A stretch of 64,000 nucleotides of DNA from positions 186,001 to 250,000 of IMG/VR virus record IMGVR_UViG_3300023184_000026; one strand, written 5' to 3'. Under the pieces are notes generated by a model. It saw nothing but the letters and a program-made list of their open reading frames with translations, was not told the origin of the DNA and made no database searches. The DNA comes from a virus. Of the stretch, positions 317 through 27,007 are shown one piece after another. The position numbers and the translations under genes were made by a program. How positions within the stretch are numbered: the stretch's first letter is position 1; each line of letters begins with the position of its first letter.

Positions 317-345
317 TTGACAAACAGCATATAGTGTATATAACT
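317..345 (+). promoter_or_regulatory. Promoter for the ssb-like gene
   Basis: TTGACA at 317-322 and TATAAC/ATAACT ending at 344-345, spacing 16-17. The leader is about 45 nt and has no Shine-Dalgarno sequence; it ends in a CA-rich stretch (AGTCAAACAAC) shared with two other genes (16221, 17423). Confidence 0.7.
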
Positions 346-395
346 GATAGCGACAAACCAAATATAGGCTAGTCAAACAACTAAACAAAAACAAT

Positions 396-794
396 ATGCT
401 AAACGTAGTAACAATGGTAGGTAATGTGGTGGCTGATCCATCCAACAGAAGCACAGGAACAGGTAAAAGTGTCAGTACACTTCGCCTTGCGGTTAATAAC
501 CCACTCAATGATAAAGAAGTACTATTTATCAATGTAGATACATGGGAAAAACAAGCTGAATTCGTTAGTAAGTTTGTGAAGAAAGGCAGCATGGTAAGTG
601 TTGTTGGACGACTCAAACAAGATGATTGGGAGAAAGATGGTGTTAAGCGTACATCATATGCCATTGTGGCTGAACGAGTCAACTTCATTGGCGGCAAAAA
701 GAAAGATGATGCTGTTAAAGTTGCTGTTGTAAGTGATCAAAGTGAAGATTTTGATGATGCTGCATTTGCATCTGCGGCTGGTATAAAGAGTTGA
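396..794 (+). CDS. ssb: Single-stranded DNA-binding protein (SSB, OB fold)
   Basis: Binds and protects single-stranded DNA during phage replication and recombination. The 132-residue product has the bacterial-type SSB OB-fold pattern: MLNVVTMVGNVVADP at the N-terminus, a STLRLAVNN strand near residue 28, FINVDTWEKQAEFVSKFVKKG at 47-67, then SVVGRLKQDDWEKDG and SYAIVAERVNFIGG. The length is short for a bacterial SSB (about 170), with only a brief acidic tail (SEDFDDAAF) and no DDIPF tip, so contacts with host SSB partners may be lost. It has its own promoter and terminator and sits beside the ~21-bp repeat array, a placement that suits a replication region. The identification is by fold pattern; the single-gene transcription unit is visible. 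Confidence 0.85.
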   Translation: MLNVVTMVGNVVADPSNRSTGTGKSVSTLRLAVNNPLNDKEVLFINVDTWEKQAEFVSKFVKKGSMVSVVGRLKQDDWEKDGVKRTSYAIVAERVNFIGGKKKDDAVKVAVVSDQSEDFDDAAFASAAGIKS

Positions 795-809
795 TTATCA
801 AAATGTTAC

Positions 810-836
810 AAAACCCCGATTTTTTCGGGGTTTTTT
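810..836 (+). terminator. Rho-independent terminator after ssb
   Basis: CCCCGA (814-819) pairs with TCGGGG (825-830), flanked by A and T runs. It sits 15 nt after the ssb stop. Confidence 0.9.
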
Positions 837-842
837 CTTTAT

Positions 843-1000
843 AGCTATATACAGTTTTATACAAGCTATATACAAAATATTATAGCTTATATACTTTTTG
901 TTATACGCTATATACACTTTTATACAAGCTATATACTTTTTGTTATAGCGTATATACAAAACATTATAGCGTATATACAATATTATATAGCAAAAATTCG
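843..1000. repeat. Array of eight ~21-bp AT-rich repeats (iteron-like)
   Basis: Units with core AGC(N)TATATAC begin at 843, 864, 884, 906, 927, 947, 968 and 989. Spacings are 21, 20, 22, 21, 20, 21 and 21, which is two helical turns, so a protein would meet every unit on the same DNA face. Related cores occur upstream of ssb (213-237) and at about 1052. This could be a replication origin with iterons or a multi-site operator. The flank 1001-1158 is AT-rich with no gene seen. Confidence 0.75.
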
Positions 1001-1159
1001 TTATATAATATGCACTATATAGAGAATATATGTTGTATCAAGAACAATATAGCATATATGGTTTTGTCAAAAAAACCTATATAACAGGGCACCAATTCAA
1101 TTATATATGAAATTTAAAAAATGTCAAACACATAAAAATTTATATCAAAAATTATTTGC

Positions 1160-1188
1160 TCGACTTTTTATAAAAAATAGTTTATAAT
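1160..1188 (+). promoter_or_regulatory. Early-type promoter, no clear gene
   Basis: TCGACT-N17-TATAAT with the TTTTTATAAAAA spacer. An ATG follows after 5 nt but opens only a 7-codon ORF (1194-1217). Confidence 0.65.
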
Positions 1189-1193
1189 AACGT

Positions 1194-1345
1194 ATGGGGA
1201 GGAACCCAAAATTTTAAAAAAATTGGAATGAATATTCACGCAATTTGAGCAGCCTCCGGTCCCCCACCCATCGGCCACCCTTTCGGGACTCACCGTAGTT
1301 CGGCTTTTCGGAATCGCTCTCCTACTTCCACCGTGCTTTAATAAT
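1194..1345. ncRNA. Candidate noncoding RNA region between convergent promoters
   Basis: This GC-richer 150-bp segment lies between a plus promoter (1160-1188) and a minus promoter (1341-1368). Read on the minus strand it contains CCCGAAAGGG (a GNRA-capped hairpin) and CCGAACTACGG, and it ends near a palindrome (TGAATATTCA) followed by AATTTTTTT. A minus ORF (1168-1374) spans it, but its ATG lies upstream of the minus promoter. No RNA family was recognised. The minus-strand transcript looks the more likely product. Confidence 0.4.
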
Positions 1346-1368
1346 GACAGAAATTTATAAAAAGTCGA
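1341..1368 (-). promoter_or_regulatory. Early-type promoter on the minus strand
   Basis: On the minus strand: TCGACT (1363-1368), N16 including TTTTTATAAA, then CATTAT (1341-1346). It is the only clear minus-strand member of the family and fires into the GC-rich segment at 1194-1340. Confidence 0.6.
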
Positions 1369-1421
1369 GAACAATCAGCCATGTGTGTGCCAACCAACAT
1401 CACTTTTTTCAACGATTGTTC

Positions 1422-1450
1422 TCGCTTTTTCTATAAAAAGTAGTCAGTGT
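1422..1450 (+). promoter_or_regulatory. Early promoter for 1458
   Basis: TCGCTT-N17-CAGTGT, 7 nt before ATG 1458. Part of the left half (GATTGTTCTCG at about 1414) is an inverted copy of 1363-1377. Confidence 0.75.
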
Positions 1451-1457
1451 TGGCAGC

Positions 1458-2051: not shown

Positions 2052-2054
2052 GCA

Positions 2055-2083
2055 TTGACATTTTATAAAAAATCAATCAAGCT
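2055..2083 (+). promoter_or_regulatory. Early promoter for 2093
   Basis: TTGACA-N17-CAAGCT with the TTTTATAAAAAA spacer, 9 nt before ATG 2093. Confidence 0.65.
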
Positions 2084-2092
2084 TTAGCCAAC

Positions 2093-2365: not shown

Positions 2366-2366
2366 C

Positions 2367-2395
2367 TGGACATTCTATAAAAAGTAAAATACTCT
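2367..2395 (+). promoter_or_regulatory. Early promoter for 2405
   Basis: TGGACA-N17-TACTCT, 9 nt before ATG 2405. It overlaps the end of the preceding gene. Confidence 0.65.
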
Positions 2396-2404
2396 GTTTT
2401 AATT

Positions 2405-2680: not shown

Positions 2681-2694
2681 AACTGATTTTGTGC

Positions 2695-2723
2695 TGGACA
2701 TTCTATAAAAAGTAAACCATACT
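2695..2723 (+). promoter_or_regulatory. Orphan early promoter
   Basis: TGGACA-N17-CATACT is intact, but no plus-strand ATG or ORF follows. The next bases are the stop codon and 3' end of the minus-strand GIY-YIG gene. The cognate gene seems to have been displaced by that insertion. Confidence 0.7.
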
Positions 2724-3425
2724 CATTTCACAAACCTGCCATCTTTTCCACGGGGACATTTACTGGTTAGTCCTCTCCACCATCCAGTCGGAATTTCTTT
2801 TGATTTTTCGTATTTTTTATTAGAAATTCCATCTGTTATCCAACAGCTTCCTAATAGCCACGTGCGAGTTTTTTCTATACTTTCAGCCGACATTGTTTTA
2901 CCCAAATGCATTTTTCTATGATGTTCCTTACGTTCTTCGCTCCATATGGTGCCAGATGCATACGTGTTACCAATCAGTGAATTGGATATTTTATTTCTTG
3001 ATTTGATTGTATGATATCGCCCCTCCATCGGGCCGTTGGCTGGAATTGCTATGTTATACCCTCTCACTATTGAATTGTAAAATTCAACCCAGTGAATTTC
3101 TTTTGAAGTTAAAAGTTCTTTTATTGGCTCACACTCTTCCAAAATTACTTTATCAAAATTATCATATCCATACTTCTTCAAAGCATTATATAATTTTGTC
3201 TGTGCCTTGCACTCATGACGTTTGTATCTTCCCCATCTTGTATAAATATTATCGGCACTTTGTCCGATATACCATTTTCCGTTAGTTTTGTTTCTTAGAC
3301 CGTAGATACCGCAACATTTGGCGTTTGAGGATTTTTTCTTTATTTCGTTCGTAGTATCGTTTTGATTTTGTTCGGTTGTTTGCATCAATTTCTTCTTTCG
3401 TAGTGTATATTTTTTTTCTTCCCAT
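2723..3425 (-). CDS. GIY-YIG homing endonuclease, needs +1 frameshift
   Basis: Probable DNA endonuclease promoting its own spread. Two overlapping frames on the minus strand make one protein. ORF1 (3425-3282) starts MGRKKIYTTKEEIDANN and continues RYYERNKEKILKRQ, a basic N-terminal module. The GIY-YIG domain (CCGIYGLRN, then GKWYIGQS, a DNFDKVILEECE segment and KEIHWVEFYNS) lies in the +1 frame and runs to 2723, followed by NUMOD-like DNA-binding repeats (SEERKEHHRKMHLGK, then WITDGISNKKYEK). A run of six As lies just before the GIY motif, where a one-base skip joins the frames. A TATATTTATTGATATG motif covers the start. The endonuclease at 21959-22703 has the same layout. It lies behind an orphan early promoter. 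A sequencing indel or translation from an internal ATG are alternatives. Confidence 0.75.
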
Positions 3426-3438
3426 ATCAATAAATATA
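3422..3438 (-). promoter_or_regulatory. Late-type motif at the endonuclease start
   Basis: Minus strand TATATTTATTGATATG, ending in the start codon. The same TATT(T)ATTGATATGG(G) string covers the starts at 10843 and 22703. Confidence 0.5.
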
Positions 3439-3489
3439 GAGGTGAGAGAATAAAAGTGAGAGAAATCGTCATTATTTTTCGTTTTTTTC

Positions 3490-3517
3490 TGGACTTTTTA
3501 TAAAAACCGTTCATAGT
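3490..3517 (+). promoter_or_regulatory. Early promoter for the helicase
   Basis: TGGACT-N16-CATAGT, 7 nt before ATG 3525. Confidence 0.75.
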
Positions 3518-3524
3518 TCTATTC

Positions 3525-4931
3525 ATGACCATTGATACCACGCAATTGATCGGCCCGCAGCCCGACCATGTAAAACGCCTCGTTGATTCTATTTACATCA
3601 ACGGGTTCGCTCTTGACATGAGCGAGACTGGGACTGGTAAGAGTTATTGTGCGGCGGCAGTTGCGAGGGAACTGGGTTGCGATGCCACTCGTCCGCTGGT
3701 GCTCATTGCACCAAAACCGATTTTACCACAATGGGCCAAGATCTTGTCCAGCTTCAATCTCAAGCCATATGTTGCCATCAACTATGAAAAGCTTGGGCGT
3801 GGCAACACCAAATATATGAAGTGGAAGAAACAGAAGTGCATATTGAAGCCATGGGTTGAAAATGCCGTCATGGATGCTCCGGAATTCAATTTGCCCAAGG
3901 ATGCATTGGTCATTCTGGACGAAGGACACAAATGCAAAGGCAATCATAGCACGAATTCATGGATGATGATCATGCTCAAGGAACAGGGCTATAAGGTGCT
4001 TGTGGCGTCTGCTACGCTTGCCACTACGCCAATGGAACTCAAGGCTGCTGGCTATTTGGCAGATCTGCACAGTCTGCATAACTTTGACCACTTTCTGCGT
4101 CAGCATGGTGCGGAGTGGGTTGGTCGGTTTGGTGCCATGTCGTGGGATGCTGCGTCTGTTGCTGCCAAACACAGCATGATGTTGCTCAATGAATATTTCT
4201 TTGACACTCGCAGATGCGCATCGCGTTTGACTGTGGACGACTTTGGTACATTGTTTCCAGAGTCTCATATTGTGGCAGAAGCTTATGACCTTGGAACTGC
4301 CACTGGTAAAATCAATGATATCTATGATGACATGGAAGCTGAAATTGCCAAGTTGGATGAACGTGCTGGCAATTATAGCGAACATATCTTTGCTATCATG
4401 ATGGAAGCTCGTCGTCGTTCTGAACTGTTGAAGGTTCCTTTCTTTGTTGATACCATGGAGGATCTTTATGATGAAGGCAAGAGTGTAGTATTGTTTGTGA
4501 ACTTTCAAGACACTGTTGATGCTATTGTAAAGCGTCTGGAGAAGATGAAGAAGTTCAAGGACACTATTGGATATATTGTTGGCGGGCAACATCATAAAAC
4601 TCGTCAGAAAGATATTGAAGACTTCAATGCTGACAAAAAACGCATCATGGTTGTGAACATCAAGGCTGGAGGCGTAGGCATCAGTCTGCATGACCTCAAC
4701 GGCAATCACGCACGTGCCAGCATCATCAGCCCCAACTTCAGTGCGTTTGAGCTGGTGCAGGCTTTGGGGCGTGTATGGCGTCAGGGTGGCAAGACCAAGT
4801 CGTTTCAGAATATTGTGTATGCAGCTGGCACAATTGAAGAAAAAGCTTGTCATCGCGTTCAGTTTAGAATGAACAACTTGAGCACGCTCAATGATGCTGA
4901 TTTGCGAGAAGGCATCAAAATGTTTGGTTAA
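3525..4931 (+). CDS. SF2 (DEAD/SNF2-like) DNA helicase
   Basis: ATP-dependent DNA translocase/helicase of superfamily 2, likely acting in phage replication, recombination or repair. The 468 residues show the full set: Walker A SETGTGKS at 33-40, LVLIAPKPILPQW (motif Ia) near 58-70, the DEGH box at 132-135, SAT at 162-164, and in the second RecA domain the motif IV/V region (VVLFVNFQDT; VNIKAGGVGISL) and motif VI QALGRVWRQGG near 412-422. It is the largest gene of the early arm and richer in GC than its neighbours. It resembles the compact phage helicases in the UvsW/Hef range rather than a full SNF2 protein. The start follows from the promoter spacing. A terminator at 4940 closes this unit. 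Confidence 0.9.
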   Translation: MTIDTTQLIGPQPDHVKRLVDSIYINGFALDMSETGTGKSYCAAAVARELGCDATRPLVLIAPKPILPQWAKILSSFNLKPYVAINYEKLGRGNTKYMKWKKQKCILKPWVENAVMDAPEFNLPKDALVILDEGHKCKGNHSTNSWMMIMLKEQGYKVLVASATLATTPMELKAAGYLADLHSLHNFDHFLRQHGAEWVGRFGAMSWDAASVAAKHSMMLLNEYFFDTRRCASRLTVDDFGTLFPESHIVAEAYDLGTATGKINDIYDDMEAEIAKLDERAGNYSEHIFAIMMEARRRSELLKVPFFVDTMEDLYDEGKSVVLFVNFQDTVDAIVKRLEKMKKFKDTIGYIVGGQHHKTRQKDIEDFNADKKRIMVVNIKAGGVGISLHDLNGNHARASIISPNFSAFELVQALGRVWRQGGKTKSFQNIVYAAGTIEEKACHRVQFRMNNLSTLNDADLREGIKMFG

Positions 4932-4987: not shown

Positions 4988-5015
4988 TCGACTTTTTATA
5001 AACTGCTGTCATTGT
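4988..5015 (+). promoter_or_regulatory. Early promoter for 5023
   Basis: TCGACT-N16-CATTGT. The first ATG (5017) is 1 nt downstream and the second (5023) is 7 nt downstream; the standard 7-nt gap selects the second. Confidence 0.75.
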
Positions 5016-5022
5016 TATGAGC

Positions 5023-5249: not shown

Positions 5250-5278
5250 TCGACTTTTTATATTTTATAAACCATAAT
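5250..5278 (+). promoter_or_regulatory. Early promoter for 5288
   Basis: TCGACT-N17-CATAAT with a variant spacer (TTTTTATATTTTATAAA), 9 nt before ATG 5288. Confidence 0.65.
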
Positions 5279-5287
5279 ATCAGCACG

Positions 5288-5505: not shown

Positions 5506-5534
5506 TCGACTTTTTATATTTCATCAACCATACT
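5506..5534 (+). promoter_or_regulatory. Early promoter for 5543
   Basis: TCGACT-N17-CATACT, 8 nt before ATG 5543. The 45 nt before it (5459-5505) hold no gene. Confidence 0.65.
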
Positions 5535-5542
5535 TCTATTAT

Positions 5543-5851: not shown

Positions 5852-5879
5852 TTGACTTTTTATAAAATCTAATCATACT
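5852..5879 (+). promoter_or_regulatory. Early promoter for 5887
   Basis: TTGACT-N16-CATACT, 7 nt before ATG 5887. Confidence 0.8.
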
Positions 5880-5886
5880 CTATTTT

Positions 5887-6492: not shown

Positions 6493-6520
6493 TTGCTTTT
6501 TATAAAAACTCTGCTAGATT
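6493..6520 (+). promoter_or_regulatory. Early promoter for 6530
   Basis: TTGCTT-N16-TAGATT, 9 nt before ATG 6530. Confidence 0.7.
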
Positions 6521-6529
6521 ATATATCAC

Positions 6530-6999: not shown

Positions 7000-7027
7000 T
7001 GGACTTTTTATAAAAACTAATCATACT
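7000..7027 (+). promoter_or_regulatory. Early promoter for 7034
   Basis: TGGACT-N16-CATACT, 6 nt before ATG 7034. Confidence 0.75.
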
Positions 7028-7033
7028 CCTTTT

Positions 7034-7243: not shown

Positions 7244-7271
7244 TGGACTTTTTATAAAAACTAACCATACT
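7244..7271 (+). promoter_or_regulatory. Early promoter for 7280
   Basis: TGGACT-N16-CATACT, 8 nt before ATG 7280. Confidence 0.75.
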
Positions 7272-7279
7272 AACAGACG

Positions 7280-8328: not shown

Positions 8329-8402
8329 TGCAGGATGGTGTAAAAGTAGCACGCCACGCTCATAATGTGGAGACAATCGCGCGATTCGGTTTCCTGCAAC
8401 CA
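8329..8402 (+). tRNA. tRNA-Met(CAT) with atypical D and T loops
   Basis: Acceptor TGCAGGA/TCCTGCA, discriminator A and encoded CCA. D stem GTGT/GCAC, anticodon stem CCACG/TGTGG with loop CTCATAA (anticodon CAT), T stem AATCG/CGGTT. The D loop (AAAAGTA) lacks the GG pair and the T loop is CGCGATT instead of TTCGATT, so the usual elbow contact is weakened on both sides. It is not initiator-like (no GGG/CCC in the anticodon stem). With CAT it could be elongator Met, or Ile2 if lysidine-modified. A terminator follows. Confidence 0.75.
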
Positions 8403-8438: not shown

Positions 8439-8466
8439 TTGACTTTTATAAAAAGTAGTTCATACT
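8439..8466 (+). promoter_or_regulatory. Early promoter for 8474
   Basis: TTGACT-N16-CATACT, 7 nt before ATG 8474. Confidence 0.8.
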
Positions 8467-8473
8467 TTATATA

Positions 8474-8669: not shown

Positions 8670-8697
8670 TTGACTTTTTATAAAATCTAATCATACT
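8670..8697 (+). promoter_or_regulatory. Early promoter for 8706
   Basis: TTGACT-N16-CATACT, 8 nt before ATG 8706. Confidence 0.75.
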
Positions 8698-8705
8698 GAT
8701 ACACG

Positions 8706-10925: not shown

Positions 10926-10953
10926 TTGACTTTCATAAAAACTCCGCTAGAGT
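10926..10953 (+). promoter_or_regulatory. Early promoter for tRNA-Met (10976)
   Basis: TTGACT-N16-TAGAGT, followed by boxA-like TGTTCTTT at 10962. Confidence 0.8.
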
Positions 10954-10975: not shown

Positions 10976-11047
10976 CCTCCTATAGCTCAACGGTAGAGCG
11001 AAGAACTCATAATTCTTGGGTTACAGGTTCGAATCCTGTTGGGAGGA
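10976..11047 (+). tRNA. tRNA-Met(CAT)
   Basis: Acceptor CCTCCTA/TGGGAGG, D stem GCTC/GAGC with AACGGTA loop, anticodon stem AAGAA/TTCTT with loop CTCATAA (CAT), T arm ACAGG TTCGAAT CCTGT, discriminator A. CCA is not encoded. Canonical throughout. It is an elongator tRNA, or tRNA-Ile2 if C34 is modified. Confidence 0.92.
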
Positions 11048-11058: not shown

Positions 11059-11086
11059 TTTACTTTTTATAAAAATCTGCTAGAAT
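11059..11086 (+). promoter_or_regulatory. Early promoter for 11096
   Basis: TTTACT-N16-TAGAAT, 9 nt before ATG 11096. Confidence 0.7.
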
Positions 11087-11095
11087 ATCTAAACA

Positions 11096-11402: not shown

Positions 11403-11430
11403 TTGACATTTATAAAAACTCTGCTAGAGT
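11403..11430 (+). promoter_or_regulatory. Early promoter for tRNA-Lys
   Basis: TTGACA-N16-TAGAGT, followed by boxA-like GGTTCTTT at 11448. Confidence 0.8.
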
Positions 11431-11579: not shown

Positions 11580-11780
11580 ATGTCTGAGGCTGATTACTAC
11601 GGTGCGGAAATTGACAAATACACCGAACATCTACTTGATTCAATTTATCCTTACTCAAAGAAGGAGGTAACTTACTCTTTGAAGGAGGATATCAGCGATG
11701 AACCCAAAAACAAGGAGGGAGTGGGCTCGGTTCCCATAATAGTGCGTGAAAGCTCGCACCATCGCACAATTTTAGTTTGA
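11580..11780 (+). CDS. Doubtful small ORF with three SD-like tracts, 66 aa
   Basis: The ORF reads MSEADYYGAEIDKYTEHLLD and on through PYSKKEVTYSLKEDISDE. It has no promoter or Shine-Dalgarno sequence of its own and would depend on the tRNA-Lys transcript. Its second half encodes an imperfect DNA repeat (TTACTC-NNN-GAAGGAGG twice) that looks more like an RNA signal than a coding sequence. Inside it, AAGGAGG at 11681 sits 9 nt before ATG 11698, which opens a 13-codon frame (MNPKTRREWARFP). It may be a real small gene, a fragment, or part of a noncoding RNA. Confidence 0.35.
   Translation: MSEADYYGAEIDKYTEHLLDSIYPYSKKEVTYSLKEDISDEPKNKEGVGSVPIIVRESSHHRTILV
11661..11721 (+). repeat. Triple AAGGAGG (Shine-Dalgarno-like) cluster
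   Basis: AAGGAGGTAA, GAAGGAGGAT and CAAGGAGGGA occur within 61 nt, the first two inside an imperfect ~20-nt repeat. Perfect anti-SD complements are otherwise rare in this window. Confidence 0.6.
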
Positions 11781-11804
11781 CAAAATATAAAATACGTTCA
11801 TAGT
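11777..11804 (+). promoter_or_regulatory. Early promoter for the TGT tRNA
   Basis: TTGACA-N16-CATAGT, followed by boxA-like TGTTCTTT at 11811-11818. Confidence 0.75.
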
Positions 11805-12589: not shown

Positions 12590-12617
12590 TTGACTTTTTA
12601 TAAATTTAGTTCACTAT
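12590..12617 (+). promoter_or_regulatory. Early promoter for 12625
   Basis: TTGACT-N16-CACTAT, 7 nt before ATG 12625. Confidence 0.75.
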
Positions 12618-12624
12618 TACTGAT

Positions 12625-12810
12625 ATGAAACTTAACCCTGGCAATTGTTACATTCAAAAGTTCTTCAATTACGATTATGAAAAATGGGATGATGAGATTA
12701 TCAAGAACAATCCATCTTGCATCTTTCATCTGATCGAGGTTGTGAAGAACAACCCAGATGACGAAAACAACTTGTTACGAAAATTTAATCTTAATCCTGA
12801 CTTTTTTTAA
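12625..12810 (+). CDS. Hypothetical early protein, 61 aa
   Basis: MKLNPGNCYIQKFFNYDYEK, then KNNPSCIFHLIEVVKNNPDD and a LRKFNLNPDFF end. Mostly helical and charged. The AAAAA-rich ORF ends inside the next promoter. Not recognised. Confidence 0.65.
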   Translation: MKLNPGNCYIQKFFNYDYEKWDDEIIKNNPSCIFHLIEVVKNNPDDENNLLRKFNLNPDFF

Positions 12811-12823
12811 TTTAGTTCATTCT
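12797..12823 (+). promoter_or_regulatory. Early promoter for 12831
   Basis: CTGACT-N15-CATTCT, 7 nt before ATG 12831. It overlaps the upstream gene's last codons. Confidence 0.6.
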
Positions 12824-12830
12824 CTGAGTT

Positions 12831-13043
12831 ATGCACTTTTATTACTTTACCACTTATACGTCAACGGAATCCACGCAAACAGGTTTTGCTTGGAAAGTTA
12901 ATTCAGCTTTGGATAAACGCGAAGTTATAAATTTTATTTCTGCCAAGTATCACGACAACAAGCCGCCTTTTGTTTCAGAAATGAAACCGAGTAACTGGAA
13001 ATTTTGCGGTAAAATGCGCAAAGAATTGTTAAAACTTTCTTGA
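12831..13043 (+). CDS. Hypothetical early protein, 70 aa
   Basis: MHFYYFTTYTSTESTQTGFA, then a helix (NSALDKREVINFISAKY) and a basic C-terminus (SNWKFCGKMRKELLKL). A small alpha/beta protein with no known motif. The start is set by the promoter. Confidence 0.65.
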   Translation: MHFYYFTTYTSTESTQTGFAWKVNSALDKREVINFISAKYHDNKPPFVSEMKPSNWKFCGKMRKELLKLS

Positions 13044-13067
13044 CTTTCTATAAAAAACAATCAATCT
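13040..13067 (+). promoter_or_regulatory. Early promoter for 13075
   Basis: TTGACT-N16-CAATCT, 7 nt before ATG 13075. Confidence 0.7.
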
Positions 13068-13074
13068 ATTCTAT

Positions 13075-13694: not shown

Positions 13695-14300
13695 ATGATA
13701 AATAACATTTTTGAAAACATCGGCGGAAATAAATTCAAAGTTGTGAATGAAACAACACTGAGTCGTGTATGGCAACACATCACCAACAGCGAAAGTTTTG
13801 CTGTTATTTCTCCATTCAGAAATGAAAATACTTTAGAAAAGAACATGCAGTTGTTTGCACAATTAAAAGCAGATGTGCGTGCTTTGAAGCATGGATATAT
13901 TGAGCAAAAGTCTGGATATACATATGATGATGGCACTCCTGCTGAAGAAAGATCATTGTTTATTCCAGAAATTTCATTTGATGATGCAGTAAAGTTGGGT
14001 AAAAAATATGTTCAAGAAACCATCATTTATAAAGATGCACAACAGTTTGTTCTTTATAATCCAACGTCAAAACAAATTGTGATGAACTTTTCCAAAAAGG
14101 ATGCTGTTACATTCAATCCAGATGTTCTGAAATATGCTTATTCTCAATTCTTAAACAGCAGAACCAAAAACTCTATGAAGCCGTTTGCATTTGTTGCAAC
14201 AGAAGAATATCATATACCCAGTCGCACAGATTCATATGCAGCAATGAAAGAAAACAAAGGTTTGGCTGTTGGTCAATGGAAAATTTTGTTTAGTTATTGA
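13695..14300 (+). CDS. Conserved phage protein, 201 aa
   Basis: Begins MINNIFENIGGNKFKVVNET and contains FAVISPFRNENTLEKNMQLF, LKADVRALKHGYIEQKSGYT, EERSLFIPEISFDDAVKLGK and YVQETIIYKDA. From memory, this plan recurs in many phage and plasmid proteins of unknown function: a strand (F)GIISA-R, then N-----L---LR--G-GY-----GY----, E-SLFVP and LG--F-QE-(V/I)(I)Y. ATG 13695 was chosen over an upstream TTG. A TTGATATTTATTAG string just upstream resembles the late motif, unlike its neighbours. Confidence 0.65.
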   Translation: MINNIFENIGGNKFKVVNETTLSRVWQHITNSESFAVISPFRNENTLEKNMQLFAQLKADVRALKHGYIEQKSGYTYDDGTPAEERSLFIPEISFDDAVKLGKKYVQETIIYKDAQQFVLYNPTSKQIVMNFSKKDAVTFNPDVLKYAYSQFLNSRTKNSMKPFAFVATEEYHIPSRTDSYAAMKENKGLAVGQWKILFSY

Positions 14301-14324
14301 CTTTTATAAAAACATTGTTAGTGT
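14297..14324 (+). promoter_or_regulatory. Early promoter for a structured RNA
   Basis: TTGACT-N16-TAGTGT. Seven nt later comes the 5' strand of a 10-bp helix instead of an ATG. Confidence 0.8.
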
Positions 14325-14330
14325 TGGGAT

Positions 14331-14427
14331 AGTCAATCAACAGAAGCCGTAGCCTAGCGGACGCGCGGTGGGATACTGCCAGCGAAGCATTGCAGAATGA
14401 ATTAGGTCATGATGCAGTTGATTGACA
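14331..14427 (+). ncRNA. Cloverleaf-like RNA, domain 1
   Basis: GTCAATCAAC (14332-14341) pairs perfectly with GTTGATTGAC (14417-14426). Inside lie CCG..CGG, GCGGT GGGAT ACTGC and GCAT..ATGC (with ATGA/TCAT inside), making a three-arm junction. The predicted transcription start coincides with the 5' edge of the closing helix. No protein frame is present. Confidence 0.65.
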
Positions 14428-15688: not shown

Positions 15689-15716
15689 TTGCTTTTTATA
15701 AAAACTCTGACACTAT
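15689..15716 (+). promoter_or_regulatory. Early promoter for 15724
   Basis: TTGCTT-N16-CACTAT, 7 nt before ATG 15724. Confidence 0.8.
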
Positions 15717-15723
15717 CTTAAAT

Positions 15724-15898: not shown

Positions 15899-15926
15899 TT
15901 GCTTTTTATAAAAACTCTGCTAGAGT
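15899..15926 (+). promoter_or_regulatory. Early promoter for 15936
   Basis: TTGCTT-N16-TAGAGT, 9 nt before ATG 15936. Confidence 0.75.
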
Positions 15927-15935
15927 GTATACCAC

Positions 15936-16165: not shown

Positions 16166-16193
16166 TCGCTTTTTATAAAATCTCTGCTAGAGT
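16166..16193 (+). promoter_or_regulatory. Early promoter for 16221 (with leader)
   Basis: TCGCTT-N16-TAGAGT, but ATG 16221 is 27 nt downstream. The leader is CA-rich (AATCAACAACACCAATAAT), like those of 17423 and ssb. Confidence 0.7.
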
Positions 16194-16220
16194 ATTACAG
16201 TAATCAACAACACCAATAAT

Positions 16221-16523
16221 ATGTCCAATACAACTGTCACTGCCACTGAGTCCAAGCGCATCAAGTATAACTTCACGCTCAACTTTCCTAACAAGCCTTT
16301 CACGGTCAAGAGCCTGACCTCCACTGGCAATCATCCCAAGTATATCACTGCTTATATGCGCGTGAAGAAGGCTCTGGCGGCTGGCACCATCACGGTGGTT
16401 GGCGCAAAGACGCCTGCCAAGGCTCGGCGAGGCGCGCTTGAGGTGCTTTATGCGCGAGCTGATGCCAAGACTGCTGTGCCGCTGACATCTGCGGTTGAGG
16501 CAGTGACCTCTGACCTTTGCTGA
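16221..16523 (+). CDS. Hypothetical early protein, 100 aa
   Basis: MSNTTVTATESKRIKYNFTL, then FPNKPFTVKSLTSTGNHPKY, a helix and a basic Ala-rich stretch (GAKTPAKARRGALEVLYARA). Thr-rich and basic, possibly nucleic-acid binding. Higher GC than its neighbours. The unstructured SD-less leader differs from the usual leaderless layout. A hairpin terminator follows. Confidence 0.65.
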   Translation: MSNTTVTATESKRIKYNFTLNFPNKPFTVKSLTSTGNHPKYITAYMRVKKALAAGTITVVGAKTPAKARRGALEVLYARADAKTAVPLTSAVEAVTSDLC

Positions 16524-16955: not shown

Positions 16956-16983
16956 TTGACTTTTATAAAAACTCTGACATAGT
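16956..16983 (+). promoter_or_regulatory. Early promoter for 16991
   Basis: TTGACT-N16-CATAGT, 7 nt before ATG 16991. Confidence 0.8.
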
Positions 16984-16990
16984 TCTAAAC

Positions 16991-17361: not shown

Positions 17362-17390
17362 TTGCTTTTTTATAAAAAATCATACATTAT
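17362..17390 (+). promoter_or_regulatory. Early promoter for 17423 (with leader)
   Basis: TTGCTT-N17-CATTAT, with ATG 17423 at 32 nt. The leader (AGTCAAACAACAACACAATA) is CA-rich and SD-less. Confidence 0.7.
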
Positions 17391-17422
17391 TATTATTTCA
17401 GTCAAACAACAACACAATACAT

Positions 17423-17719
17423 ATGATGGCCAATCCTCCCAACAACACTATCTTTCAGTATGTTCGCAACCGGCGACGGCAAAAAGTCGGCGTGGTTGTA
17501 GCTGTGAAGCGGCACGACAATACAATTGGCTTTGGTTACAGCCTGTGCGCTGTTAATCTTGGCGACAAGTTCAACCCAGAACTGGCGTTGAACATTGCAC
17601 TTGGTCGTGCCGAAGCGTTTCCGCACTTTGCTGATGAAATTCCAAGCAGCGTAGAAAATGATTGGAGTGAAATTCTGCATCGTTCTGAGCGTTATTTCAA
17701 GGACGTTGAGATTGTGTAA
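17423..17719 (+). CDS. Hypothetical early protein, 98 aa
   Basis: MMANPPNNTIFQYVRNRRRQ, then KVGVVVAVKRHDNTIGFGYS, LCAVNLGDKFNPELALNIAL and a helix with HFADEIPSSV. The strand pattern VGVVVAV..IGFGYSLC with LGDKFNPELAL resembles phage proteins from mixed contexts; function unknown. Confidence 0.65.
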   Translation: MMANPPNNTIFQYVRNRRRQKVGVVVAVKRHDNTIGFGYSLCAVNLGDKFNPELALNIALGRAEAFPHFADEIPSSVENDWSEILHRSERYFKDVEIV

Positions 17720-17777: not shown

Positions 17778-17805
17778 TTGACTTTTATAAAAACTCTGTC
17801 ATTGT
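17778..17805 (+). promoter_or_regulatory. Early promoter for 17813
   Basis: TTGACT-N16-CATTGT, 7 nt before ATG 17813. Confidence 0.8.
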
Positions 17806-17812
17806 TCATATC

Positions 17813-18061: not shown

Positions 18062-18089
18062 TTGCTTTTTATAAAAATTCTGTCACTGT
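18062..18089 (+). promoter_or_regulatory. Early promoter for 18097
   Basis: TTGCTT-N16-CACTGT, 7 nt before ATG 18097. Confidence 0.8.
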
Positions 18090-18096
18090 TTTAAGT

Positions 18097-18653: not shown

Positions 18654-18681
18654 TTGCTTTTTATAAAAACTCTGTCATTGT
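18654..18681 (+). promoter_or_regulatory. Early promoter for 18689
   Basis: TTGCTT-N16-CATTGT, 7 nt before ATG 18689. Confidence 0.8.
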
Positions 18682-18688
18682 TTTAAGT

Positions 18689-18921: not shown

Positions 18922-18949
18922 TTGCTTTTTATAAAAATTCTGATATTGT
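18922..18949 (+). promoter_or_regulatory. Early promoter for 18957
   Basis: TTGCTT-N16-TATTGT, 7 nt before ATG 18957. Confidence 0.8.
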
Positions 18950-18956
18950 TTTAAGT

Positions 18957-19194: not shown

Positions 19195-19413
19195 ATGAAT
19201 AATAATTTTACACGAATTTATTCAGCATCTGGCAAAGAAATTTTTCCCAGAGCTGGTCTTTGTTTGAACGCTGGAACCATTGTTCAAAAAAATAGTGGTT
19301 TTGTTACATTGGTCAAGTCTGCCACAATTCAAGCAAATAAAGTTACTGTGCTTGGAGATGGTCAGGGCAGAGACAAAAAAGAAATCTCTTTCTCACTGGT
19401 TGAATCAGTTTGA
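19195..19413 (+). CDS. Hypothetical early protein, 72 aa
   Basis: MNNNFTRIYSASGKEIFPRA, then GLCLNAGTIVQKNSGFVTLV and VTVLGDGQGRDKKEIS. Beta-rich, no motif. It lies 4 nt after 18957 with no promoter and is likely co-transcribed. Confidence 0.6.
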   Translation: MNNNFTRIYSASGKEIFPRAGLCLNAGTIVQKNSGFVTLVKSATIQANKVTVLGDGQGRDKKEISFSLVESV

Positions 19414-19437
19414 CTTTTATAAAAAGTCCGATATTGT
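19410..19437 (+). promoter_or_regulatory. Early promoter for 19445
   Basis: TTGACT-N16-TATTGT, 7 nt before ATG 19445. Its 35 nt are almost identical to the promoter at 19630. Confidence 0.8.
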
Positions 19438-19444
19438 TTTAAGC

Positions 19445-19629: not shown

Positions 19630-19657
19630 TTGACTTTTATAAAAAGTCCGATATTGT
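19630..19657 (+). promoter_or_regulatory. Early promoter for 19665
   Basis: TTGACT-N16-TATTGT, 7 nt before ATG 19665. Confidence 0.8.
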
Positions 19658-19664
19658 TTTAAGT

Positions 19665-19931: not shown

Positions 19932-19959
19932 TCGCTTTTTATAAAAATTCTGTCACTAT
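19932..19959 (+). promoter_or_regulatory. Early promoter for 19967
   Basis: TCGCTT-N16-CACTAT, 7 nt before ATG 19967. Confidence 0.8.
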
Positions 19960-19966
19960 CTTATTT

Positions 19967-20134: not shown

Positions 20135-20162
20135 TCGACATTCATAAAAACTCTGGCATTAT
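20135..20162 (+). promoter_or_regulatory. Early promoter for 20170
   Basis: TCGACA-N16-CATTAT, 7 nt before ATG 20170. Confidence 0.75.
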
Positions 20163-20169
20163 CTATAAT

Positions 20170-20391
20170 ATGAACTCTTGGAAAACTGAAGTTTGCACAA
20201 TGTATCAAGGCAGCGAATCTTGGGCGACCAATTCTTTGCGATTTGCTTCAAAGATTGAAGCTGAAAAAGCTGGGCATGAATTGCTTTCTCGTTGGTATGT
20301 TCCAATCAAAAGTCGTGCTGCACAATCAGAAGATGCAGTGAATTATGTTTTTGATGACGCCACTGGCCGTCCAGCACCAATATCTGTTTGA
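20170..20391 (+). CDS. Hypothetical early protein, 73 aa
   Basis: MNSWKTEVCTMYQGSESWAT, then LRFASKIEAEKAGHELLSRW and an end VFDDATGRPAPISV. The layout strand - W-SN-LRFA(S/T)-EAE--G-EL--RW - (V/I)P is a common small phage and plasmid protein of unknown function. ATG 20170 is fixed by the promoter. Confidence 0.7.
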   Translation: MNSWKTEVCTMYQGSESWATNSLRFASKIEAEKAGHELLSRWYVPIKSRAAQSEDAVNYVFDDATGRPAPISV

Positions 20392-20415
20392 CATTTATAA
20401 AACAATTAATATAAT
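20388..20415 (+). promoter_or_regulatory. Early promoter for 20419
   Basis: TTGACA-N16-TATAAT, the best -10 of the set, but only 3 nt before ATG 20419. It overlaps the previous stop codon. Confidence 0.65.
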
Positions 20416-20418
20416 CTT

Positions 20419-20618: not shown

Positions 20619-20646
20619 TTGATTTTTATAAAAACTCTGGCATAGT
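20619..20646 (+). promoter_or_regulatory. Early promoter for 20654
   Basis: TTGATT-N16-CATAGT, 7 nt before ATG 20654. Confidence 0.75.
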
Positions 20647-20653
20647 TAGTGTC

Positions 20654-20793: not shown

Positions 20794-20821
20794 TTGCTTT
20801 TTATAAAAAAATAGTCAGTAT
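20794..20821 (+). promoter_or_regulatory. Early promoter for 20829
   Basis: TTGCTT-N16-CAGTAT, 7 nt before ATG 20829. Confidence 0.8.
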
Positions 20822-20828
20822 CTATAAT

Positions 20829-21125: not shown

Positions 21126-21153
21126 TTGCTTTTTATAAAAACTCTGTCAGTAT
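21126..21153 (+). promoter_or_regulatory. Early promoter for 21161
   Basis: TTGCTT-N16-CAGTAT, 7 nt before ATG 21161. Confidence 0.8.
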
Positions 21154-21160
21154 TCTAAAC

Positions 21161-21585: not shown

Positions 21586-21613
21586 TCGACTTTTTATAAA
21601 AACCAGTCATAGT
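21586..21613 (+). promoter_or_regulatory. Early promoter for 21621
   Basis: TCGACT-N16-CATAGT, 7 nt before ATG 21621. Confidence 0.8.
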
Positions 21614-21620
21614 TTACAAC

Positions 21621-22820: not shown

Positions 22821-22848
22821 TTGACTTTTATAATAAATAAATCATTAT
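22821..22848 (+). promoter_or_regulatory. Early promoter for 22856
   Basis: TTGACT-N16-CATTAT, 7 nt before ATG 22856. The spacer is TTTATAATAAA, a variant also used at 23071 and 23860. Confidence 0.8.
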
Positions 22849-22855
22849 CTTAAAT

Positions 22856-23074
22856 ATGAAATTTGTTATCTTCTGCAATGCCGCCAATTTGAAAACCTAC
22901 AACAACACTTGGATTGTTGTAGCTGCCAACACATCATATAAAGTGTTGAACATTCAATTTGATGAATATGGCATCATACGTTCAATTGTTTTTTCTGTGA
23001 GCAATGACATTGTTGCTTTTGAACGCAGCAATATTACTGGAAAATTTGGCAGCAATTTTGCTTTGAGTGCTTGA
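22856..23074 (+). CDS. Hypothetical early protein, 72 aa
   Basis: MKFVIFCNAANLKTYNNTWI, VVAANTSYKVLNIQFDEYGI and IVFSVSNDIVAFERSN. Beta-rich with alternating hydrophobics, possibly a small barrel. Not recognised. Confidence 0.65.
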   Translation: MKFVIFCNAANLKTYNNTWIVVAANTSYKVLNIQFDEYGIIRSIVFSVSNDIVAFERSNITGKFGSNFALSA

Positions 23075-23099
23075 CATTTTATAATAAGTAAGTCAGTAT
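23071..23099 (+). promoter_or_regulatory. Early promoter for 23107
   Basis: TTGACA-N17-CAGTAT, 7 nt before ATG 23107. Confidence 0.75.
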
Positions 23100-23106
23100 T
23101 TATAAC

Positions 23107-23322
23107 ATGAAATCCAAGAAACTTACCAAGACATACTTTGAACTCTACACGATTGGTGCCACAAGTGGTTGGGGAGAATATGACGATGAAACCTTGGACA
23201 CCACACTCAAAACACTCAAATCTGCTATGAAAGAAGCAAAAATTCTGGCAGATGAAGGTCAAACTGTCAAGATCAAGCAGGTCAAAGAATTGCTGTTTAT
23301 CAAAGGTGAAAAGGCTGCTTGA
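23107..23322 (+). CDS. Hypothetical early protein, 71 aa
   Basis: MKSKKLTKTYFELYTIGATS, then WGEYDDETLDTTLKTLKSAM and a helix plus strand (KIKQVKELLFIKGEK). Alternates charged and hydrophobic residues as in a ferredoxin-like fold. Function unknown. Confidence 0.65.
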   Translation: MKSKKLTKTYFELYTIGATSGWGEYDDETLDTTLKTLKSAMKEAKILADEGQTVKIKQVKELLFIKGEKAA

Positions 23323-23346
23323 CTTTTATAAAAACTCTGACACTAT
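23319..23346 (+). promoter_or_regulatory. Early promoter for 23354
   Basis: TTGACT-N16-CACTAT, 7 nt before ATG 23354. Overlaps the upstream stop. Confidence 0.8.
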
Positions 23347-23353
23347 CTATAAC

Positions 23354-23827: not shown

Positions 23828-23830
23828 AAC

Positions 23831-23858: not shown

Positions 23859-23859
23859 A

Positions 23860-23887
23860 TTGCAATTTATAATAAATGTGCTAGAGT
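23860..23887 (+). promoter_or_regulatory. Early promoter for 23894
   Basis: TTGCAA-N16-TAGAGT, 6 nt before ATG 23894. Confidence 0.65.
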
Positions 23888-23893
23888 ATCTGA

Positions 23894-24166: not shown

Positions 24167-24167
24167 T

Positions 24168-24637: not shown

Positions 24638-24638
24638 T

Positions 24639-24833: not shown

Positions 24834-24847
24834 TGTCAATAGTTTCG

Positions 24848-24861
24848 TATATTTATATACA
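24848..24861 (+). promoter_or_regulatory. Late-type motif for 24870
   Basis: GTATATTTATATAC, ending 8 nt before ATG 24870. Confidence 0.6.
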
Positions 24862-24869
24862 TAAAATAT

Positions 24870-26603
24870 ATGAAAAAGCCTAGATTGCCATTTGATATAG
24901 AATTTTTGTTGGAAAGTATATTATATGAATCTCCTGACAGAATTGATTTGTCGGGAGATTCAAATCGTGCAAAAGAATCTGATGCAGCAAGACTAAACAG
25001 TCTTGGCGCAGCTGTACCAAAAACTGGTGCAACATTCAGATATTTATCTGATGATGCTTATGCGTTTTTCTTTGATGTTGAAACTGGCATAATAATGTAT
25101 TCTGAAAAAAACACTCATGGTAGCATGGAACAAATGTTGCAAACAGCTTCACATAAAGCCACCTTATATGCCGCCACGTTCAAAAACATGTATAACATCA
25201 AGCGTGATATGTTTGGTAATATATCTGCATATTCATACGCAGAAAAAGAAGATGATATTTATGGTGCCGCAACTGTGGGTTTTATTGGATTAAAGCAACA
25301 AGGTGATGATGTTGAAACAATCAGAAATTATTTACACAACAACAGAATACGTTTTCGTCAATTAGATATTAGAGGAAACGCGGATAGTTCAGCCACTGTT
25401 CCGGCTGGTAGAATTTGGGTCAAAAAAAATGCAATTAGTTTTTGGAACAGCAAAGATGAAATTGTAAATGAAAATTTTCAACTTGTTGAAAAGTTGATGA
25501 GTGCAATGAAACTTGATAAAACAAAGTTTGCTTATGAATTTATAGACACTCTAGGATTGTTTGCATATTCAGAACTTGTGGGCAATTCAAACAAAGAAAA
25601 ATTGAGTCCTGAAGAAATAAAAAAACTATTGGCGGCTCAACATCTGGATTCAAAAGCAAAGAAAAAATTGGCCGGATCAACTTATAAAGCAGATCGCTTG
25701 AAAAAAGCTGCCAAAGGATTTGATTATGCTGCTAGAGCAGATGCTGCCATTCCTGCACTTGAAGGTCATATAAAACTAAAAGATTTGATAAATGAAGATC
25801 CTGACGCTGTGGTTGGTTTGTCGGGAAAAGAAATTTCTGACTGGACAGATGCAGATGCTGTTGCTTTTATTATCACACAAAAATGCGGCATATCATATGC
25901 AGGCGGAGTTCACGGTGACATCATGGATGCAATGGAAACTTTGTATAAATATTTACGGGACAGCCCTGATGCCAGAAATTTGCAAAGAAGACTTGAACAG
26001 CATGGCATGGCTACCGATAACATAGTTGCGTTAAGAGAACTGTTGACGCAACCAAGTGCATTTCATGATTTTTTAGAAAATGGTGGCATGCGCGGAAGCA
26101 TAAATAAAAATATTAATTTTAGAAACATACAAGGAACAATTTTTGGTCGTTTGTGGAACAGAAAGAAACTAATAAGTTTTTGGAATAATACACAAAAAGT
26201 TGTGAAAAATTGGAATTGGGTAAAGAACTTTTTCAACAACATGCAAAAATTAACTGGCGACTTGAATGATTATGAAGTTGATTGGTTGGAAAGAAGTCGT
26301 AATAGATCAATGACACCATTGACCAAAGCAAGTGATGTTGATGCCAACACCGGCAAGCCAGATGCAAATCAACAAGATTTTATTTCTACACTGTTTGGTG
26401 ATGTGAAAAAAATCAAATCATTGTCACCAGAAGAAATTGAAAAATTAAATAAAAAAATTCATCTATTACCACCAGCAAAAAAGCGTGAAGCATTGTTGGC
26501 AATGGGATACAAAAATATAAAAGCAATTGAAATTGCAGATGCACTTGGCATGACTGTGGCAGAGTTTAATAACATCATGAATGTGAATGAGTCTGGTCAA
26601 TAA
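24870..26603 (+). CDS. Large hypothetical late protein, 577 aa
   Basis: Not recognised. It starts MKKPRLPFDIEFLLESILYE, then an alpha/beta region around AFFFDVETGIIMYSEKNTHG (residues ~63-83), a central charged helical region with Lys-Ala repeats, and a C-terminal ALLAMGYKNIKAIEIADALG helix resembling a UBA-like or helix-turn-helix end. The N-terminal LLESIL-E segment is of the type found in late T4-like structural or internal proteins. It has no signal peptide. Large size, late-type promoter and position suggest a virion or injected internal protein (inference). Confidence 0.6.
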   Translation: MKKPRLPFDIEFLLESILYESPDRIDLSGDSNRAKESDAARLNSLGAAVPKTGATFRYLSDDAYAFFFDVETGIIMYSEKNTHGSMEQMLQTASHKATLYAATFKNMYNIKRDMFGNISAYSYAEKEDDIYGAATVGFIGLKQQGDDVETIRNYLHNNRIRFRQLDIRGNADSSATVPAGRIWVKKNAISFWNSKDEIVNENFQLVEKLMSAMKLDKTKFAYEFIDTLGLFAYSELVGNSNKEKLSPEEIKKLLAAQHLDSKAKKKLAGSTYKADRLKKAAKGFDYAARADAAIPALEGHIKLKDLINEDPDAVVGLSGKEISDWTDADAVAFIITQKCGISYAGGVHGDIMDAMETLYKYLRDSPDARNLQRRLEQHGMATDNIVALRELLTQPSAFHDFLENGGMRGSINKNINFRNIQGTIFGRLWNRKKLISFWNNTQKVVKNWNWVKNFFNNMQKLTGDLNDYEVDWLERSRNRSMTPLTKASDVDANTGKPDANQQDFISTLFGDVKKIKSLSPEEIEKLNKKIHLLPPAKKREALLAMGYKNIKAIEIADALGMTVAEFNNIMNVNESGQ

Positions 26604-26626
26604 TTTATAGTAAATAATGTACGGCA

Positions 26627-26660
26627 TAATCCTTTGATATAAAACATAGGATTTCTCTTT
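26627..26660 (+). terminator. Weak terminator-like hairpin
   Basis: AATCCT pairs with AGGATT across a 15-nt loop, then TCTCTTT. Weak. The rest of 26661-26780 is AT-rich with no gene seen. Confidence 0.35.
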
Positions 26661-26782
26661 AAATATATACATTTTATTATGCACAAACAATGCATACCAG
26701 CATGCCTCATTCTATCAAAAAATGTGTATATGCTATTTTTCATGAGGGGTTATTATAAATAGTATATTTACGAAAAAAGTGG

Positions 26783-26811
26783 TTGACTTTTATTAAATGT
26801 GCAGCCAGTAT
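26783..26811 (+). promoter_or_regulatory. Early promoter for 26819
   Basis: TTGACT-N17-CAGTAT, 7 nt before ATG 26819: an early-type promoter within the late arm. Confidence 0.7.
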
Positions 26812-26818
26812 ATACAAG

Positions 26819-27007
26819 ATGAATAAAACATCCAATACAACTAAACAAACTCGCGGCGTCGGTCGTCCCAAGAACAGTGTTTCTGTGGACACACAACAGC
26901 CTGTTAAGATGGTTGGGCTACCAGCCATGATTGAGCCCACAATTCATGACATCACAGACGAACTGTCTATGCTCGACAGTTATGCCTATTCTCAGTATAA
27001 CGAATAA
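26819..27007 (+). CDS. Hypothetical protein with AT-hook-like motif, 62 aa
   Basis: MNKTSNTTKQTRGVGRPKNS contains GRPK, the core of an AT-hook, followed by an acidic half (PTIHDITDELSMLDSYAYSQ). The layout fits a small DNA-binding regulator, though AT-hook matches this short are weak evidence. It heads an early-type unit with 27021 and 27219. Confidence 0.6.
   Translation: MNKTSNTTKQTRGVGRPKNSVSVDTQQPVKMVGLPAMIEPTIHDITDELSMLDSYAYSQYNE

Follow-up and report, generated by a model that had tools for sequence, protein, structure and literature searches.

Messages starting directly on the initiation codon have been described both in phages and in bacteria. The classic phage example is lambda cI, whose mRNA starts at the AUG (PMC9031893), and phage transcripts are often leaderless according to the authors of the AR9 study (PMC5312081). 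Leaderless middle and late mRNAs are reported for the Thermus phage phiYS40 (PMC3594737). Kasugamycin blocks canonical translation but leaves that of leaderless messages unaffected (PMC5230787). In Cluster O mycobacteriophages (Corndog) transcription from the SigA-like promoters PL1 and PR2 is predicted to begin with the start codon's first base, and 17-base-pair (bp) repeats are present; the same article also names the Start-Associated Sequences of Cluster K mycobacteriophages (PMC4351075). Bacterial leaderless genes feature a TANNNT box about 10-12 bp upstream of the start (PMC3160421; for Deinococcus-Thermus, PMC12340547). Here a promoter-like repeat is described that recurs in the left 27 kilobases (kb) of a stretch of viral DNA of 64,000 nucleotides (nt), hereafter the window, corresponding to bases 186,001-250,000 of the 297,258-base IMG/VR virus record IMGVR_UViG_3300023184_000026. 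Most genes of this left arm very probably carry a private sigma70-like promoter giving a leaderless mRNA that starts at the AUG. The bacterial TANNNT genes follow the same rule of inference and nearly the same geometry, but they are scattered on the chromosome, whereas here dozens of near-identical promoters are set head to tail in one arm, with a strong -35 box and mostly CANNNT as the -10 box. The start at the AUG predicted here is shared with lambda cI, which is however a single gene.

The consensus of the repeats in the window includes TTGACT or TTGCTT, a T-tract/TATA/A-tract block, often CTCTG, and (C/T)ANNNT, with a spacer of 16, sometimes 17 nt. As a promoter, the element would be about 35 bp long, often filling the whole gap to the next gene, with (C)TTGACT or TTGCTT as the putative -35 box, the T-tract/TATA/A-tract block within a 16-17 nt spacer, and (C/T)ANNNT as the -10 box. 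Sites were collected by a detector combining a T-N-G-[AC]-[CT] box, a TTTATAA-like core and YANNNT at a spacer of 15-18, with no regard to the position of ATG codons. In window positions 1-27,500 this detected 44 sites on the + strand and 2 on the - strand, whereas 200 random first-order Markov sequences gave a mean of 0.8 sites (maximum 4), none at 7 nt from an ATG. The spacer is 16-17 nt in nearly all sites, which together with the TTGAC-like -35 box and the TANNNT-like -10 box (C rather than T at its first position) is as expected of sigma70-type promoters. The left arm is plausibly early, judging from its gene content (SSB, helicase, tRNAs, small genes), from these boxes and from the lack of a sigma70 region 2 match in the contig. 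In a separate pattern scan (at most one mismatch) 28 copies were found on the + strand of the early arm, none on its - strand and none in the 27.5-64 kb region of larger genes; the absence from the latter argues against a late class. A candidate late promoter, TATTTATA, seen near some late starts, was rejected because it is not enriched relative to a control word and its distance is not fixed.

An earlier interpretation made from the sequence alone (the sequence-only reading) had counted about 50 near-identical promoters, a fair figure considering the 44 detector sites and the weaker ones ahead of 1458, 11096, 11824 and 14697. Its first site, 317, has to be removed, as the SSB promoter found there differs in sequence and has a long leader rich in A and C. 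The palindrome assigned to the spacer is often broken in relatives (TTTTCATAAAA, TTTTGATAAAA). The palindrome was also considered as an operator and rejected, being broken in many of the relatives' sites; the element looks less like a strict operator than like a T-tract/TATA/A-tract block. In the whole record the exact 13-mer GACTTTTTATAAA is present 13 times in forward and 3 times in reverse orientation (reversed control, 0), and 13 of the 16 copies fall within genome positions 187-208 kb. Outside the window the motif is found at about 100-113 kb (L043), 151-162 kb (L039) and 172-177 kb (L040) of the genome. Several of the copies in these three regions precede larger genes, the distance being 6-14 nt or the leader longer.

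The distance between the end of the -10 box and the first ATG opening an open reading frame (ORF) is 7 nt in 25 of the 44 sites, 6 nt in 2, 8 nt in 3 and 9 nt in 5. The remaining sites include one each at 1, 3, 27 and 34 nt, and five without an ORF, two of which precede called tRNA genes and one a tRNA-like uncalled sequence. The -10 box thus ends 6-9 nt ahead of the ATG in 35 of the 44 sites (26 at 7 nt, counting ATG 5023), in keeping with the mark of leaderless genes, a -10 box beginning about 10-13 bp upstream of the start codon (PMC3160421). Since the detector does not use the ATG, the concentration at 7 nt is not built in, and compared with a flat 0-59 spread it is beyond doubt, though such a spread is a crude null. 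That at least 27 promoters lie at 7 nt, as the sequence-only reading had stated, is borne out by the 25 detector sites together with ATG 5023 (site 4988) and ATG 1458 (spacer 17), and all 15 starts that it listed lie at this distance. It also held that the rule selects between ATGs 5017 and 5023 in favour of a presumed conserved protein start; no homologue of this gene was found in the relatives' loci compared. The 9-nt sites with TAGANT boxes can be read as 7-nt sites if the hexamer is shifted by two. The predicted leaders fall into two length classes, one of about 0-2 nt and one above about 17 nt, and few are intermediate. A similar pattern is reported for Lactococcus, in which leaders of 4-14 nt were not observed (PMC10986495). 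The sites are listed below; distances are from the end of the -10 box, and genes were called within this analysis.

1160-1366: copies at 1160 (+) and 1366 (-), facing inward across a GC-rich stretch; no clear ORF
1422-1457 (+): promoter TCGCTT, spacer 17, CAGTGT; 7 nt to ATG 1458; pattern scan
2055-2092 (+): promoter; 9 nt to ATG 2093; detector
2367-2404 (+): promoter; 9 nt to ATG 2405; detector; homologue in distant L091 also 9 nt
2695-2723 (+): orphan promoter, split from helicase by GIY-YIG endonuclease gene (2723-3532, - strand)
3490-3524 (+): promoter; 7 nt to ATG 3525 (DEAD/ResIII helicase); relatives mostly 6-7 nt
4988-5022 (+): promoter; 1 nt to ATG 5017, 7 nt to ATG 5023; detector
5250-5287 (+): promoter; 9 nt to ATG 5288; detector
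5506-5542 (+): promoter; 8 nt to ATG 5543; detector
5852-5886 (+): promoter; 7 nt to ATG 5887; homologues in both relative groups 6-7 nt
6493-6529 (+): promoter TTGCTT..TAGATT; 9 nt to ATG 6530; detector
7000-7033 (+): promoter; 6 nt to ATG 7034; detector
7244-7279 (+): promoter; 8 nt to ATG 7280; detector
8439-8473 (+): promoter; 7 nt to ATG 8474; detector
8670-8705 (+): promoter; 8 nt to ATG 8706; detector
10926-10953 (+): promoter TTGACT..TAGAGT, ahead of tRNA gene at 10976; detector
11059-11095 (+): promoter TTTACT..TAGAAT; 9 nt to ATG 11096; weaker site
11403-11430 (+): promoter, ahead of tRNA-Lys (11464); conserved in L101; detector
11777-11804 (+): promoter TTGACA..CATAGT, ahead of tRNA-Thr (11824); weaker site
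12590-12624 (+): promoter; 7 nt to ATG 12625; detector
12797-12830 (+): promoter, spacer 15; 7 nt to ATG 12831; detector
13040-13074 (+): promoter; 7 nt to ATG 13075; upstream gene's TGA within -35 box
14297-14324 (+): promoter TTGACT..TAGTGT; no ORF within 60 nt; conserved in L101, L103
15307-15341 (+): promoter; 7 nt to ATG 15342; detector
15689-15723 (+): promoter; 7 nt to ATG 15724; detector
15899-15935 (+): promoter TTGCTT..TAGAGT; 9 nt to ATG 15936; detector
16166-16220 (+): leadered exception; 27 nt from -10 to ATG 16221; A/C-rich leader lacking a Shine-Dalgarno
16956-16990 (+): promoter; 7 nt to ATG 16991; detector
17362-17422 (+): leadered exception, CAACAACA-type leader; 32-34 nt from -10 to ATG 17423
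17778-17812 (+): promoter; 7 nt to ATG 17813; distant homologues G006, G009 also 7 nt
18062-18096 (+): promoter; 7 nt to ATG 18097; detector
18654-18688 (+): promoter; 7 nt to ATG 18689; detector
18922-18956 (+): promoter; 7 nt to ATG 18957; detector
19410-19444 (+): promoter; 7 nt to ATG 19445; detector
19630-19664 (+): promoter; 7 nt to ATG 19665; detector
19932-19966 (+): promoter; 7 nt to ATG 19967; detector
20135-20169 (+): promoter; 7 nt to ATG 20170; detector
20388-20418 (+): promoter TTGACA..TATAAT; 3 nt to ATG 20419; upstream stop within -35
20619-20653 (+): promoter; 7 nt to ATG 20654; detector
20794-20828 (+): promoter; 7 nt to ATG 20829; detector
21126-21160 (+): promoter; 7 nt to ATG 21161; detector
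21586-21620 (+): promoter; 7 nt to ATG 21621; detector
22821-22855 (+): promoter; 7 nt to ATG 22856; detector
23071-23106 (+): promoter; 7 nt to ATG 23107; upstream stop within -35
23319-23353 (+): promoter; 7 nt to ATG 23354; upstream stop within -35
23860-23893 (+): promoter TTGCAA..TAGAGT; 6 nt to ATG 23894, 9 nt to ATG 23897
26783-26818 (+): promoter, last of arm; 7 nt to ATG 26819; G007 homologue at 8 nt

Relatives were found by DNA patterns and by the helicase, and fall in a close group A, in which most proteins are about 90% identical, and a distant group B, with helicases 57-66% identical. Absence of the motif upstream of the same genes in relatives had been named beforehand as counting against the promoters; the motif is present there. 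Copies are nearly all on one strand, with almost no control matches. Group A hosts 84 sites, 52 of which are at 7 nt, and group B 170 sites, 83 at 7 nt and 35 at 6 nt. The first methionine of the homologous proteins falls on an ATG preceded by the motif at 6-9 nt in 85/97 cases in group A, and the motif lies at 6-8 nt in 22/37 cases in group B, where the promoter shifts together with the ATG when the N-terminus is some codons longer or shorter. The spacing is kept, yet the relatives' proteins are often only 45-66% identical. Gene order differs among close relatives: some cassettes are found in one and lacking in another, cluster 15 has moved and 16/17 are swapped, and each place has its promoter. 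TTGAC is conserved at 96-100% per position in the distant group; conservation of A2 and T6 of the -10 box is not independent, as the detector requires both. From -7 to -2 the information content is only 0.0-0.3 bits in group B. The bases between the -10 box and the ATG are thus nearly unconserved but the distance is held, and the spacing is therefore kept apart from the sequence.

Junctions with the preceding gene go beyond what the sequence-only reading had noticed, since the -35 box of the distant group often contains the TGA stop of the upstream gene. In 70 of 129 group B sites the TGA of the TTGAC box terminates an open frame of 44 codons or more; the corresponding figures are 13/68 in group A and 4/35 in the window. 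TTGAC provides a stop in one frame, so that a third would be expected with a random upstream frame, and the overlap is partly passive. With a stricter count, requiring one unambiguous upstream frame, the gap from stop to ATG in group B peaks at 30-31 nt (35/62). These junctions show an intergenic space reduced to the promoter alone.

Several features converge on the start codon as the probable start of transcription. RNA polymerase favours a purine start following a pyrimidine, 7 bp past the -10 box, and pyrimidine-rich discriminators move the start further downstream (PMC5730371). Position -1 is C71/T20 in group B, where a pyrimidine precedes the ATG in 92/102 leaderless starts versus 41/66 other starts (C in 71 versus 19). 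The first discriminator base is a purine in 29/43 of the 6-nt sites and a pyrimidine in 119/160 of the 7-nt sites, a contrast (Fisher 1e-6, the pooled sites not being fully independent) in the direction predicted by the start-site rules. Starts at 6-8 nt are ATG in 31/31, 63/63 and 127/128 cases, or 221/222, and leaderless initiation prefers AUG in several species (PMC9031893). Conserved spacing, ATG-only starts, the pyrimidine/A junction and the discriminator shift agree, and lend support to the leaderless interpretation. RNA polymerase, presumably that of the host, would initiate 7-8 nt past the -10 box; with the box ending 6-7 nt before the ATG, +1 would be the A of the AUG, with zero leader. 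An exact start on the A, as the sequence-only reading had it, is the most likely one, but a leader of 1-2 nt may be present at some of the 8-9 nt sites.

Translation would then begin at an AUG lying at the very 5' end, with no help from a Shine-Dalgarno, a signal of which this phage makes hardly any use. Strong pairing with the anti-Shine-Dalgarno is found in 0/35 early leaderless starts, and in 7% of late starts versus 5% in shuffled sequences; in Microcystis phage Mel-JY01, taken as control, the values are 41% and 13%. The lack of Shine-Dalgarno sequences noted earlier is thus confirmed for early starts, but is not distinctive, because late genes miss them too. It is a phage-wide trait, probably related to the host, and points to a host with ribosomes needing little Shine-Dalgarno help. 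A phage ribosomal protein S21 was considered and rejected: no match to PF01165 was found in the contig, while six control genomes match and Mel-JY01, the nearest isolate, has one.

Some observations weigh against a sigma70 promoter set for a start on the AUG. The detector was devised after the motif had been seen, and relatives are not independent samples, so that pooled statistics use related sequences. A pyrimidine at -1 discriminates only in the distant group; it is found in 83% of late starts of this phage too, and was rejected as proof within it. Sigma70 prefers T at the first position of the -10 box, but C is found there in 89-96% of the 7-nt sites; this could reflect a sigma factor particular to the host, or a promoter of reduced strength. 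TAGANT boxes, instead of C-first ones, go with 9-nt, leadered or tRNA promoters. Finally, the TATAAA within the spacer core is a possible -10 box in its own right. Were it the real one, transcription would start about 22 nt before the ATG, and CTCTGnCANNNT would belong to a short untranslated leader, serving there as a signal for translation. The high conservation of TTTTATAAAA, which contains a good Pribnow box, fits this scheme, but the matching -35 box would be expected some 17 bp farther upstream, in a region (positions -60 to -42) with 0.0-0.2 bits in the distant group, and TTGAC is located just 2-4 bp from TATAAA, a geometry not used by sigma70. The 16-nt spacing of TTGAC and YANNNT is moreover kept in 37/66 sites in which the core is shifted by one base, though this is a weak argument. 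A start at TATAAA, which leaves ATG-only starts, fixed spacing and the block ahead of tRNA genes without explanation, is judged very unlikely.

Promoters might also be real and their spacing an accident of descent, all being recent copies of one ancestor spread through recombination. Copies in the window are near identical, and cassettes have been gained, lost and reordered among relatives. Genes downstream are however mostly unrelated to one another, and in the distant group the distance is still 6-7 nt with the intervening bases almost unconserved; selection must therefore hold the spacing, though copying may spread cassettes, and descent by itself is a most improbable explanation. A middle regulon is less improbable, though still rather unlikely. 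The -35-like box would be bound by a MotA-like phage activator, or the whole set read by a phage sigma, and messages would still be leaderless. MotA acts on host polymerase at T4 middle promoters, the phage is related to T4 by capsid and portal proteins, TTGCTT resembles the MotA box, and the C opening the -10 box is odd for sigma70. On the other hand the clade-wide box CTTGAC is a normal -35 at the normal spacing of 16-17 nt, and neither Sigma70_r2 nor MotA_activ (PF09114) found a match in the contig; the MotA model matched no control genome either, so its absence is a weak point. A private sigma70-like promoter with a leaderless start remains the preferred interpretation. More tentatively, and with somewhat less than even confidence, we suggest that a jumbo-phage clade runs a gene wave from a fixed joint, which fuses the promoter with an upstream stop in its -35 box and with a start codon coinciding with the transcription start. 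Each joint being nearly identical and complete in itself, genes would be plug-in units that can be gained, lost or relocated while retaining their own leaderless messages, in a phage with no need of Shine-Dalgarno sites.

Copies of the motif precede the tRNA genes at 10976, 11464 (tRNA-Lys) and 11824 (tRNA-Thr), and the motif is therefore a transcriptional element, that is, a promoter. The tRNA at 10976 (CAT anticodon) was evaluated as a phage initiator tRNA and rejected, because its first acceptor pair is paired and its anticodon stem lacks the G-C run. The promoter at 14297 is followed (14297-14360) by AGCCGTAGCCTAGCGGACGCGC, the 5' end of which is tRNA-like; it was not called as a tRNA, and is conserved in L101 and L103. 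A further tRNA (8329-8399) was found by Rfam and missed by ARAGORN. The few leadered genes (16166-16221, 17362-17423, 317-396) have A/C-rich, CAACAACA-like leaders with no Shine-Dalgarno. The leader-length class is kept in relatives for the first two: homologues of 16221 are also leadered, by 24-40 nt, and close relatives keep the leader of 17423 at 32 nt. Promoter 2695 is separated from the helicase start by a GIY-YIG homing-endonuclease-like gene, encoded on the - strand. The relative L107 (8344-8430) has no insert here, and its counterpart of this promoter lies directly against the ATG of the helicase. The helicase of the window has another promoter (3490), exactly 7 nt from ATG 3525. The GC-rich stretch between the inward-facing copies 1160 and 1366 is possibly an RNA gene or a remnant; its fold is not clearly better than those of shuffled sequences, and no Rfam match was found.

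The single-gene cassettes of the sequence-only reading hold for promoters, less so for transcripts. Terminators are scarce, with about five convincing hairpins between 8 and 27.5 kb; transcripts must therefore run on into downstream genes, and messages overlap. Later genes would be reached by read-through, yet each gene would have its own 5' end as well. The left 27 kb encode SSB, a DEAD/ResIII helicase, GIY-YIG endonucleases, tRNAs and mostly tiny genes of no assigned function, while the remainder of the window hosts larger genes, glycosyltransferases among them. A protein encoded at 13695-14297 matches DUF3293 over the cut-off and an S-adenosylmethionine lyase below threshold, and is a possible anti-restriction enzyme. 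Positions 33706-38978 host in a row glycosyltransferase, Nol-like carbamoyltransferase and HtrL/YibB-like genes, which may serve to decorate the virion or a surface; the glycosyltransferase, of the GlcNAc family, is 49% identical to one of Xanthomonas phage XacN1. The major head protein is closest to that of Mel-JY01 (58.6%), followed by those of an uncultured 484-kb phage, of Flavobacterium phage immuto (55%) and, more remotely, of T4-like phages. The portal and head families likewise point to tailed-phage head proteins of T4-like type, and because of these matches the source is assigned, by protein similarity, to a T4-related jumbo phage. The isolated relatives Mel-JY01 and immuto have no copy of the motif, and both feature dense operon-like genes. 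Across 84,980 bacterial species the motif pattern gave five scattered single matches, chance-like, which identify no host, nor did tRNA, capsid or glycosyltransferase similarity resolve one.

Work on leaderless mRNAs usually deals with genes scattered over a chromosome or with individual phage genes, and here they are the apparent standard of a whole arm in one phage clade. Dozens of natural replicates offer a clean test of the effects of spacing, discriminator and second codon on leaderless expression. The element is also a natural 35-bp part for the expression of many small genes, and provides a simple rule for locating the correct start codons of very small phage genes overlooked by gene finders.

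In the open-access literature searched we found no account of an arm composed of private leaderless promoters. The nearest known system is phiYS40, in which most of one mRNA class is leaderless, the sole phage-wide case found in that literature. That class is middle/late, with host IF2 raised and IF3 lowered (PMC3594737); here boxes are of sigma70 type, the arm of small genes looks early, and each gene has one promoter. Corndog shares predicted leaderless phage transcripts and a short repeat occurring many times per genome, but its leaderless promoters are few and its repeats are not tied to start codons. Cluster K Start-Associated Sequences are similarly conserved short sequences closely linked to many start codons. 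To our knowledge, they are not promoters with -35 and -10 boxes, whereas the element described here is found also ahead of tRNA genes, which it is predicted to drive. Leaderless phage mRNAs are thus already known, and the present plan is a new form of them.

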